Source of the DNA: an uncultured Pelagibacteraceae bacterium
GTDB taxonomy: Bacteria; Pseudomonadota; Alphaproteobacteria; Pelagibacterales; Pelagibacteraceae
Length of the DNA: 46,048 nt
Direction: 5' to 3'
Assembly: GCA_902577625.1 (NCBI GenBank)
Contig: CACGZX010000005.1
Span: 1 to 46,048, forward strand
Part shown: positions 20,954 through 24,518 of the stretch, in pieces
How positions within the stretch are numbered: the first letter of the stretch is position 1
How the letters are laid out: each line of letters begins with the position of its first letter
Translations under genes and position numbers: made by a program
Notes under the pieces: model-generated
What the model was told of the DNA's origin: nothing
Database searches by the model: none
Seen by the model: the letters and a program-made list of their open reading frames with translations, nothing else

Positions 20954-22069
20954 ATGAACATAAAAAAAAATTCTATAGGTTTAAAAAAAGATCCAAAAGA
21001 AACAACAGTCGTTGTTGCTATGTCAGGAGGTGTTGATTCATCTGTGGCCGCTGGAATAATGAAAGAACAAGGATATAATGTTATTGGAATTACGTTGAAG
21101 TTATACGATGATACAAAAGAAATTTCTAAGTCTAAACAATGTTGTGCGGGGCAAGATATTTTAGATGCAAAGAGAGTCGCTGATAAATTAAAGATTGAAC
21201 ATAAAATTTTATATTATCAAAGCAAATTTAAATCAGGTGTTATAGATAGTTTTGTAGAAAGTTATCTAAAAGGTGAAACACCAATTCCATGTGTACAATG
21301 TAATCAAACTGTCAAATTTAATGATTTATATAAAGTGTCTAAAAATTTAAATGCAGATGCCTTGATTACTGGACATTATGTAAAAAGTATAACATTAGAT
21401 GATGAAACAAATATGTATAGGGCTATTGATGAAAATAGAGATCAAAGTTATTTCTTATTTAATACAACTAGAGAACAATTAAATTATTTGAGATTTCCAT
21501 TAGGTGGAATGTTAAAGAACGAAACAAGAGATATCGCAAAAAAATTAAATTTAAATGTAGCTGACAAACCAGATAGTCAGGATATTTGTTTTGTTCCAAA
21601 TGGTGACTATTCTTCAGTTATCAAAAAGTACAGACCAGATTCTTATAAAAAGGGGAATATTAAAGATTTGAATGGAAAAGTGCTAGGAGTTCATGAAGGC
21701 ATTATAAATTTTACAATTGGGCAAAGACGTGGAATAAAAGTTTCAAACAAGGAACCTCTTTACGTAATAGAGATAAATGCTGAAAAAAATGAAATTATTG
21801 TTGGTTCAAAAAAAAATTTAATTCAAAAAACAATAAAATTAAGAAATTTAAATATTTTGTGTGACACGGAAGAGCTTAATAAAGAAGTTTTGGTCAAAAT
21901 TAGATCAACAGGAAAATTGGTAAAGGCAAATATAGATCTGGATAATGATGAACCAAGTGTTAACCTTTTAGAAGATGAATACGGTATATCTCCTGGACAG
22001 GCTTGTGTATTCTATTCAAAAAATAAAAATGGTTATAAAGTTTTAGGTGGTGGATGGATAAAAAAATAA
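20954..22069 (+). CDS. mnmA: tRNA-specific 2-thiouridylase MnmA
   Basis: MnmA adds sulfur to U34 of Lys, Glu and Gln tRNAs. The PP-loop SGGVDSS is at residues 24-30, the catalytic cysteine pair is Cys116 (CVQCNQ) and Cys212 (DSQDICFVP), and DQSYFLF and GQRRGIKV are further family blocks. An extra cysteine motif QCCAGQDI near residue 63 is common in alphaproteobacterial MnmA. Length is 371 residues. The N-terminal ~15 residues before the PP-loop are longer than in E. coli, so a later start is possible. It ends one base before the convergent membrane protein gene. Confidence 0.96.
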
Positions 22070-22070
22070 A

Positions 22071-23168
22071 TTAAATTATTTGTTTTCTCCACAAAATAGC
22101 AGACAGTAAATAAAAAACCATTAAGAACAAAAAGTAGTTCCATTCTAAAATATAATCTATTTTAGAATCTAAGTTTGAAAAACTTAAAATAGCCAATATA
22201 ATTACTGAACTTATTATAATTGTTGAAACAAATATAATTTTTAAATTAAGTATATTTGAGTAAATTAAACTATCAATTTTATTTAGAGAAAGATATAGCC
22301 TTCTTGTAAGAAAATATTGAGCTAATATTTCAAAAAGAATAAATAAAATTAAAATTAATCTTCTAATTTTTGTAAAAATTTCATTATCAATTTCAGTTCC
22401 TAAAAAAAATACGTGAAAAAAAAGAAATATACTGGAAAAAATACCAAAAAAAGTAAATTTATTAATTTTTTGACTATCAGTAATTTGTTTAAAAATATTA
22501 TGATAGTTCACCCAATATAAAATCATTAAAAAAGACCCTATAAATAGCAGAGGCTTAAAAACTAAATTTACCGGATATCTTTTGGCAATATTACTAATTG
22601 AGGTTTCTCCATATATAAATGGATTAATAGTTTCCGATGTTCCTGCAACATATTTTTCATTAGATTTAATTTTTTCTAAAAAATAAATAAATTGAGGAAT
22701 ATTTTTGTAAATTCTTTTTAGATTTGAATTCTTGATACAACTATTATCTATTTTGTTGCTTCTAGAATAAAGCTTTCTTATATTAAGTTTTGATAGTTTA
22801 TCTTTCGAATAAATAGCTTCATTTGAATATTTGTTTATATAATCAGGAAAATTAATTTTTTCATTTTCAATTAATACATCAATACTTACAATATATTTTT
22901 CACACTGATTAAACTGAGTTATATTAGCAAAATATTCAGGATGATTTTTAGTAATATTTTTAGGTGTAGTTAAACAAAAATTATTTTCTTTAGTACATTT
23001 AATAATTATAGGCAGCTTATTTTTATAATCTATATTTTGTAAGCTTAAATTAAAACTTACTAATAAATTATGAGCGATTAGCGATATTATTAATGCTAAT
23101 GATGGAAATAAAAATAGATATAAGCTTATCTTCCTTAATCTATTTATCCCTTTGCTTAAAGAAATCAT
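22071..23168 (-). CDS. Membrane protein of unknown function
   Basis: A 365-residue protein not recognised as any family. One N-terminal membrane segment (~15-37) is followed by a ~160-residue lysine/asparagine-rich domain, probably periplasmic, with four cysteines (CTKENNFC, a CEKY and NSCIKN) that could form two disulfides. Five C-terminal membrane helices follow, including FFGIFSSIFLFFHVFFLGTEI and a basic-flanked ILFILFEILAQYFLTRRLY. No signal for transport, catalysis or sensing is visible. A 27-codon basic ORF begins 100 bp upstream and ends 17 bp before it, so the two probably share a transcript. Confidence 0.75.
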   Translation of the reverse strand: MISLSKGINRLRKISLYLFLFPSLALIISLIAHNLLVSFNLSLQNIDYKNKLPIIIKCTKENNFCLTTPKNITKNHPEYFANITQFNQCEKYIVSIDVLIENEKINFPDYINKYSNEAIYSKDKLSKLNIRKLYSRSNKIDNSCIKNSNLKRIYKNIPQFIYFLEKIKSNEKYVAGTSETINPFIYGETSISNIAKRYPVNLVFKPLLFIGSFLMILYWVNYHNIFKQITDSQKINKFTFFGIFSSIFLFFHVFFLGTEIDNEIFTKIRRLILILFILFEILAQYFLTRRLYLSLNKIDSLIYSNILNLKIIFVSTIIISSVIILAILSFSNLDSKIDYILEWNYFLFLMVFYLLSAILWRKQII

Positions 23169-23185
23169 TTAATAGATATAAAAAA

Positions 23186-23269
23186 TTACTTTTTCTTGTT
23201 TTTTTTTCTAGCTCTTCTCTTTTTTGAGCCCATTTTTCTACGGCCTCTGTGTTTTTTTGGGTATCCCAT
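23186..23269 (-). CDS. Tiny highly basic protein (27 aa), ribosomal-protein-like composition
   Basis: A 27-codon ORF hidden antisense to the false N-terminal extension of the metC ORF. AAAGGA lies four bases before the ATG, a good ribosome-binding site here. More than half of the residues are Lys or Arg (for example GRRKMGSKKRRARKKNKKK). Composition and size recall small ribosomal proteins such as bS22/mS38-type or Thx, but the match is by composition only. Codons for Arg (CGT, AGA) and Gly are more GC-rich than chance AT-rich sequence would give. It sits just downstream of the metC divergent spacer and 17 bp before the unknown membrane protein. Confidence 0.6.
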   Translation of the reverse strand: MGYPKKHRGRRKMGSKKRRARKKNKKK

Positions 23270-23342
23270 ATATTCCTTTGTTATTATTTTATTGACTTAT
23301 TTAGCGGATATAGCATTGTCTTTTTATCTTATCAAATTTTTT

Positions 23343-24518
23343 ATGGATAAATCATTTAAAACTTTTTTAAAACATACTGCAAAAGATTATTATAATCAGT
23401 CAGTAAACCCACCAGTAGTAAGAGCTTCCACAATCATTTTTAAGTCAATGAACGAGTTAAGAAAAACTCAGTTCAAGGGTAAAAAAAACCCAATTGGCGG
23501 ACATTTCGAGTATGGAAGGCAGGGCACTTCAACAACATACATTTTACAACAAATGTTAAAGAGAATGGAAGAGTGCTACCATGTATTTTTAACTCCAACC
23601 GGTTTTGGTTCAGTTTTTTTATCAATTTTTAGCATTGTTCGTCCAGGTGATGAAATTTTAGCTGCCGATCCAGTTTATTCTCCAACACGATTACTAACTG
23701 AAGATTTTCTCAAATCATTTAATATTAAAACAGTCTTTTATAACCCCAATGATTTAAATACATTAAAAAAAAAAATTACAAAAAAAACAAAATTAATTTA
23801 TGTAGAAAACCCAGGAAGTAATTCTTTTGAATTTCAAGATCTTTCCAAAATAATTTCAATTGCAAAAAAAAATAAGTTATTTTCAGTAATAGATAATACT
23901 TGGGGTACTCCATATTATTTAAAACCTATTAAATTAGGATTTGACATGTCTATTGTATCAGCTACAAAATATTATTCAGGCCATTCTGATGTTATGGGTG
24001 GAAGTTTAGCTGTTAACAAAAGAGTTTTTAAATATGTTGAAAAAGCAAATAAAATTACTGGCCTAAGATTAGGACCGGACGATGCATATTTAATAATAAG
24101 AGGATTAAGAACATTAGATGTTCGTCTTGATAGGCATGAAGAAAATGCAAAAAAAGTTGCATCTTTTTTATCTAGACACAAAAAAGTCAACCTTTTATAT
24201 CCATATAAAAAAGGCTCATATAATTACAAAATGTGGAAAAAACATTATTCAGGAGCATCAGGATTAATGGGTTTAAAAATAAAAGCAAAAAACAAAAATT
24301 CTATTAATAAATTTGTAAATTCTTTAAAATTATTTGGTTATGGATATAGCTGGGGAGGATTTGAAAGTTTAGCATTACATCAAGAGTTTAGAGAATTAGG
24401 AAAAAGAAATTATTTAAAACTAGAAAAAGATGAACATCTAGTTAGACTTCATATTGGTCTAGAAGATCCTAAAGACTTAATTAACGATTTAAAAAGATCT
24501 TTGAGATTTATTAAATGA
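23343..24518 (+). CDS. metC: Cystathionine beta-lyase (trans-sulfuration PLP enzyme)
   Basis: I place the start at ATG 23343, giving 391 residues beginning MDKSFKTFLKHTAKDYYNQS. The 49-residue track extension is hydrophobic, unlike any MetC, and runs antisense to the 27-aa ORF. PLP-family features include GRQGTSTTYILQQM, FLTPTGFGSV, the cofactor-contacting VENPGSNSFEFQD, IDNTWGTPY, and the PLP lysine in SATKYYSGHSDVMGG (Lys209). MetC splits cystathionine to homocysteine in methionine synthesis. Subfamily members can also act as other sulfur-amino-acid lyases. The stop overlaps the MFS start by four bases. Confidence 0.9.
   Translation: MDKSFKTFLKHTAKDYYNQSVNPPVVRASTIIFKSMNELRKTQFKGKKNPIGGHFEYGRQGTSTTYILQQMLKRMEECYHVFLTPTGFGSVFLSIFSIVRPGDEILAADPVYSPTRLLTEDFLKSFNIKTVFYNPNDLNTLKKKITKKTKLIYVENPGSNSFEFQDLSKIISIAKKNKLFSVIDNTWGTPYYLKPIKLGFDMSIVSATKYYSGHSDVMGGSLAVNKRVFKYVEKANKITGLRLGPDDAYLIIRGLRTLDVRLDRHEENAKKVASFLSRHKKVNLLYPYKKGSYNYKMWKKHYSGASGLMGLKIKAKNKNSINKFVNSLKLFGYGYSWGGFESLALHQEFRELGKRNYLKLEKDEHLVRLHIGLEDPKDLINDLKRSLRFIK

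Follow-up and report, generated by a model that had tools for sequence, protein, structure and literature searches.

Besides bS22, eL41 and mS38 are precedents for short, basic, helical proteins that occupy pockets in the rRNA. Proteins of this type, with bS22 known from Borrelia, Flavobacterium and Actinobacteria, count 25-33 aa (mS38 is longer), are 55-65% basic, stand alone and easily escape annotation. In Borrelia, bS22 consists of 61% K/R, lies in an rRNA pocket and was unannotated until it was seen in a map (PMC10618245), and C. acnes also has bS22 (PMC10085706). A further basic protein of this size is bTHX, found in Thermus and with plastid and mitochondrial relatives. Ribosomal proteins are also encoded by phages: bS21, bL12, bL31, bL33 and others occur as small translation-type genes in unrelated phages, under purifying selection and in host-like versions, and bS21 and bL12 enter host ribosomes (PMC6375957). 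The main text of that study mentions neither bS22 nor bTHX.

The window, i.e. the whole stretch of 46,048 nt that was analysed, from the genome of an uncultured Pelagibacteraceae bacterium, contains a gene that invites comparison with these systems. The gene and its surroundings are as follows:

23186..23269, minus strand: coding sequence of the micro-protein (27 aa, ATG to TAA with the stop counted in; product MGYPKKHRGRRKMGSKKRRARKKNKKK)
23343..24518, plus strand: gene for a metC-like PLP enzyme, divergent from the micro-protein gene; true start ATG at 23343, according to the ORF list and the metC starts of relatives
23196-23342, plus strand: spurious N-terminal extension of metC, an artefact
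22071..23168, minus strand: gene for a 365-aa membrane protein with no function assigned, downstream of the micro-protein gene on the same strand (cluster c5, 16 loci)
20954..22069, plus strand: mnmA (tRNA 2-thiouridylase), convergent; the most constant neighbour of the micro-protein gene in the family (cluster c0, 36 loci)

The product MGYPKKHRGRRKMGSKKRRARKKNKKK has 16 K/R among its 27 residues, or 17 if His is counted. Like bS22, mS38 and eL41 it is a stand-alone protein of a length that annotation easily misses, with a similar size and basic content and a predicted helix. Unlike in these proteins, the invariant part is N-terminal (YPKKHRGRRK-x-GS), and there is no detectable sequence or profile match between them. 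With bTHX it shares the length of 27 aa, the basic character, the MG start and the KKK end, but it lacks the RGxYGKxRP segment and the bTHX profile (PF17070) does not match it. The N-terminal tail of bL35 has K5, H7, R8, G9 and K12 in register and a G-S further on; the resemblance is confined to this tail and does not beat shuffled columns.

The sequence-only reading had proposed a hidden 27-aa gene at this position, more than half basic, preceded by a good ribosome-binding site and antisense to a false extension of metC. All of this was borne out: the position holds a real gene, in all likelihood transcribed independently, which encodes a stand-alone micro-protein and seems to have been overlooked only for its length of 27 codons. 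An intact ORF, nearly always of full length, is present in 164 of 197 genomes of the family (SAR11/Pelagibacteraceae) and in 71 of the 77 that are of high quality. Copies were gathered by IUPAC pattern scans, of which the named matches belonged to Pelagibacteraceae, Fonsibacter, other alphaproteobacterial single-cell genomes and one Gemmatimonadales. About 200 copies were retrieved, and their 155 distinct DNA sequences encode 25 proteins, every one of 27 aa. None of the copies has an internal stop or frameshift, and one is ended by a contig edge. The micro-protein is under purifying selection, with a mean pN of 0.082, a mean pS of 0.606 and a pN/pS of 0.14. Silent changes occur at almost every codon, both at third positions and within six-fold codons, while residues 3-12 (YPKKHRGRRK), G14, S15, R18, R19 and K25 are invariant in all 155 DNAs and 25 proteins; the small non-zero pN at codons 3-12 reflects multi-step paths between Arg codons. 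The choice between the two basic residues is equally strict, as in the 155 sequences R never replaces K5, K6, K12 or K25, nor K any of R8, R10, R11, R18 and R19, whereas K and R exchange freely at positions 21-23.

The gene lies antisense to the first 74 bases of a 440-aa ORF that starts with TTG at 23196. In relatives where metC flanks the micro-protein gene, metC starts about 75 nt upstream of it, the same as here, and at least about half of the relatives have disruptions in the antisense frames that run over the gene. The extension of metC is therefore not a real coding sequence. Seven genomes of the same genus (G051, G069, G143, G252, G256, G258 and G274; 92-99% complete) lack the ORF even when three mismatches are allowed. 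Since metC is absent there too, the locus is missing or unassembled in these genomes, not broken, which suggests that the locus was lost with both genes or that the assemblies have a gap in common; broken copies beside conserved flanking genes, which would speak against a gene, were thus not encountered among them. Where relatives do have a metC-type gene but no ORF, that gene is either another, more distant copy, as in G058 (60% identity, in another setting), or lies at the end of a contig, as in G052. The gene is thus near-universal in Pelagibacteraceae, from which strict essentiality does not follow.

Upstream of the start codon the following expression signals were recognized:

23274..23279, minus strand: Shine-Dalgarno-like AAAGGA, 4 nt before the ATG, read from the sequence
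23307..23312, minus strand: putative -10 element TATATC, preceded by TGC (extended -10 form), conserved in close relatives
23330..23335, minus strand: putative -35 element TTGATA, with a 17-nt spacer to the -10 element

AAAGGA is the ribosome-binding site that had been noticed earlier. Of 83 distinct upstream regions from close relatives, 81 contain a 4-base Shine-Dalgarno core, and of the 163 distinct regions overall 128 do; some other clades are without a strong Shine-Dalgarno sequence in the region checked. TGCTATATC is kept in all 83 regions of close relatives, and TTGATA stands 17 nt upstream of it in 69 of them, with near variants in nearly all others. TTGATA-17-TGCTATATC thus resembles a sigma-70 promoter of the extended -10 type, oriented towards the micro-protein gene, and the 5' leader would be about 30 nt long. 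The site is missing from the output of a generic promoter scan, which accepts only T at the last -10 position. The divergent interval between metC and the micro-protein gene measures 73 nt, and the promoter-like site within 23274-23342 overlaps whatever drives metC in the opposite direction. Rfam detected no RNA element within the window.

The gene stands alone and is no appendage of metC. In the family, mnmA accompanies it in 36 of about 41 loci, though a gene for a variable membrane protein sometimes separates the two; the neighbour on the other side varies (metC, accC and other genes). Outside the family it occurs next to genes for an MFS transporter (G304), a LysR-type regulator (G434) and an RpoH-like sigma factor (G297, G428), names that were assigned by eye from the translations. 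These varied contexts imply that the gene is not tied to metC. The 365-aa membrane protein between the gene and mnmA is strongly variable in length and present in some relatives only. In loci L119 and L120 (G297 and G428, of one alphaproteobacterial family) the micro-protein gene follows the sigma factor gene, and in L120 a gene for a cold-shock protein is also near.

Three other alphaproteobacterial families carry the protein at 70-78% identity. Starting from the one Gemmatimonadales pattern match, five clear carriers were found among 200 genomes of Gemmatimonadota, e.g. MGYPKKHRGRRKIGSKRRRMRRKRRKGLRLRKK. Outside the family the length is 27-36 aa. The occurrence in these three families, in Gemmatimonadota and on viral contigs is new here. 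Among 349 Pseudomonadota genomes that were scanned, the window's genome alone has the motif, so this is no general proteobacterial gene; it is absent from most Alphaproteobacteria, and the sister family of the order yielded no copy among the genomes listed. Weak class-level matches (E above 0.04) were discarded, as they were mostly inside longer frames.

The gene was also detected on 26 IMG/VR viral contigs that represent several unrelated phage types. In group A (12 contigs: L274, L281, L283, L286, L288, L290 and L294-L299) it directly follows a 154-aa gene whose stop overlaps its ATG, and a GroES-like gene comes next, with portal and major head genes close by; the GroES-like co-chaperonin gene lies between a virion-type gene and scaffold/capsid genes. 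The group A copies differ silently in their DNA. Group B (nine contigs) has a RecB-like exonuclease, an HNH-type gene (assigned by eye) and an integrase near the gene. Of the five contigs outside these groups, L292 has it directly after a DNA ligase-like gene and also carries a T4-like baseplate gene, L277 has a terminase near it, and L276, L284 and L289 have dCMP deaminase or phosphoesterase genes. PHROGs confirmed the portal, head, GroES, exonuclease, integrase, baseplate, terminase and dCMP deaminase genes on representative contigs; the portal, major head, terminase, baseplate and integrase genes show that genuine phages carry the gene. Phage proteins have longer basic tails. The whole segment MGYPKKHRGRRKRGSKYRRNKKRQK is common to phages L278, L285 and L287 and the alphaproteobacterial host version in G434, which suggests a recent exchange. 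A tblastn search of INPHARED gave no match, although low-complexity masking probably hides such a query, so that cultured phages may still carry the gene.

Together, these copies form an extremely conserved micro-protein family with members in SAR11, in a small number of further bacteria and in several types of phage, and none of the protein family libraries or literature searched describes it. HMMER scans of Pfam, NCBIfam, PHROGs and PDB sequences gave no match to the protein, to which the HMMER bias filter may contribute; a literature search for the motif string found nothing, and no description of a SAR11 ribosome map was found.

We think it rather probable that the protein binds rRNA as an accessory component of the ribosome, is mobilised by phages and acts in the manner of bS22 or eL41; RNA binding, the location at the ribosome and the use by phages are what we infer from conservation and distribution. 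Fixed K and R in the core beside free exchange at positions 21-23 argue for a specific contact with a structured nucleic acid instead of bulk charge, and would fit hydrogen-bonded docking. The core motif is identical in Gemmatimonadota and in phages with unrelated gene sets; as the same core occurs in two phyla and in unrelated phages, its partner must be nearly invariant, e.g. rRNA. Relaxing the motif brought in only unrelated protein, with YPKKHSGR, on four additional contigs. The invariant N-terminus M-x-YPKKHRGRRK-x-GS may recognise a single, unchanging surface of structured RNA, which would most likely belong to the ribosome, while the variable but always basic C-terminal helix would run along the RNA backbone. 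Its role could be accessory, as for bS22, mS38 and eL41: one short basic helix, buried in a pocket of the rRNA, would modulate the joining of the subunits, the movement of the head or stability. Phage copies could, as with bS21, be placed in host ribosomes during infection. AlphaFold2 predicts for the 35-aa phage version a free tail (residues 1-7) and one helix (residues 8-34) with a mean pLDDT of 84, which is weakly compatible with a role in an rRNA pocket, a single helix being cheap for so basic a peptide. Against a ribosomal role, there are no ribosomal genes among the neighbours and no detectable homology to bS22, Thx, eL41, bL35 or the other ribosomal proteins tried. As neither the sister family nor most Alphaproteobacteria have the gene, the protein is not a core ribosomal component. 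Its likeness to phage-encoded ribosomal proteins extends to small translation-type genes in unrelated phages, purifying selection and host-like versions, but unlike theirs (PMC6375957), its ribosomal role is conjectural.

We regard it as evenly balanced whether this is an undescribed ribosomal protein of 27-36 aa, present in nearly all Pelagibacteraceae and patchily in Gemmatimonadota, of which the copies in unrelated phages alter the ribosomes of infected hosts. Few organisms in the ocean are as abundant as SAR11 bacteria, and a ribosomal role of the protein would mean that their ribosome contains a part missing from the catalogue. Should phages bring in a version of their own, it would offer a testable handle on the phage takeover of translation. 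Thanks to its invariant motif, the gene can readily be recognised in genomes and metagenomes of any kind.

The earlier suggestion of a ribosome- or RNA-associated protein of the bS22/mS38 or Thx type stands in part: the protein is conserved in the manner of a specific RNA (ribosome) ligand, but neither PF08213 nor PF17070 matches. We therefore do not file the protein as bS22 or Thx, though it probably works like them, and for the preferred accessory role the bS22 pocket is a favourite site only. That it is a true but fast-diverged member of the bS22/mS38 (AURKAIP1/COX24) family, in the h27/h44/h45 pocket, is unlikely but deserves serious consideration. The place that defines bS22 is the 16S h2/h27/h44/h45 pocket of the small subunit. 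It is short, more than 55% K/R (16/27) and, judging from the 35-aa phage member, helical, as expected of bS22, so that size, composition and the predicted outline of a tail plus a single basic helix agree. A hand alignment shows K-[MIV]-[AG]-[ST] before the basic run in common with Flavobacterium and Borrelia bS22. The pocket could be vacant, as COX24_C (PF08213) was above cut-off in none of 21 relatives and none of 200 Gemmatimonadota, while a Corynebacterium glutamicum control was positive. On the other hand, no scanned member of the micro-protein family matched COX24_C at E up to 10, although this profile may miss divergent bS22, so that a lack of matches proves little, and the conserved half YPKKHRG has no counterpart in bS22. 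Column-permutation tests were run against a panel of bS22, Thx, eL41, bL35, bL34, bL36, bS21 and bL37, and none was significant; nor were proven bS22 pairs. Against bS22 the alignment equals shuffled columns (p 0.27-0.86), but known Flavobacterium and Borrelia versus actinobacterial bS22 behave likewise (p 0.16-0.47). As bS22 proteins of different phyla fail too, the test has no power for such sequences and leaves room for a distant relation. For eL41 p was 0.67, in a test with little power for such sequences, and the bL35-tail resemblance was rejected as unproven (p 0.14-0.23). Thx was above cut-off in none of 142 Alphaproteobacteria; in the window's genome its profile gave a single match, which stayed below the threshold and fell within a frame of 642 codons on a different contig.

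Two further readings detach the protein from the ribosome. A condensing or nucleoid-associated polycation, acting on the bacterial chromosome and on packaged phage DNA, seems improbable: the charge is very high and group A phages hold the gene within their head-gene cluster, but other phages place it among DNA-metabolism genes or beside a DNA ligase. Moreover, protamine-like proteins vary freely in sequence, unlike the fixed K-versus-R identities and the fixed Y, P, H and G seen here. We also give little credence to a small RNA-binding regulator, antiterminator- or RNA-chaperone-like, that acts on transcription or mRNA and is common to hosts and phages. Arginine-rich peptides of about this size can bind structured RNA and the phage copies occupy several gene settings, but the peptides that phages use for antitermination change fast in sequence and are each matched to RNA sites of their own, whereas this core is identical across phyla. 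Finally, that there is no gene at all, merely an A-rich antisense stretch open by accident, could be entertained because 27 aa is under the usual annotation limits and AT-rich DNA is rich in lysine codons, but it retains practically no probability, excluded by the conservation, the pN/pS, the promoter-like element and the distant homologues.
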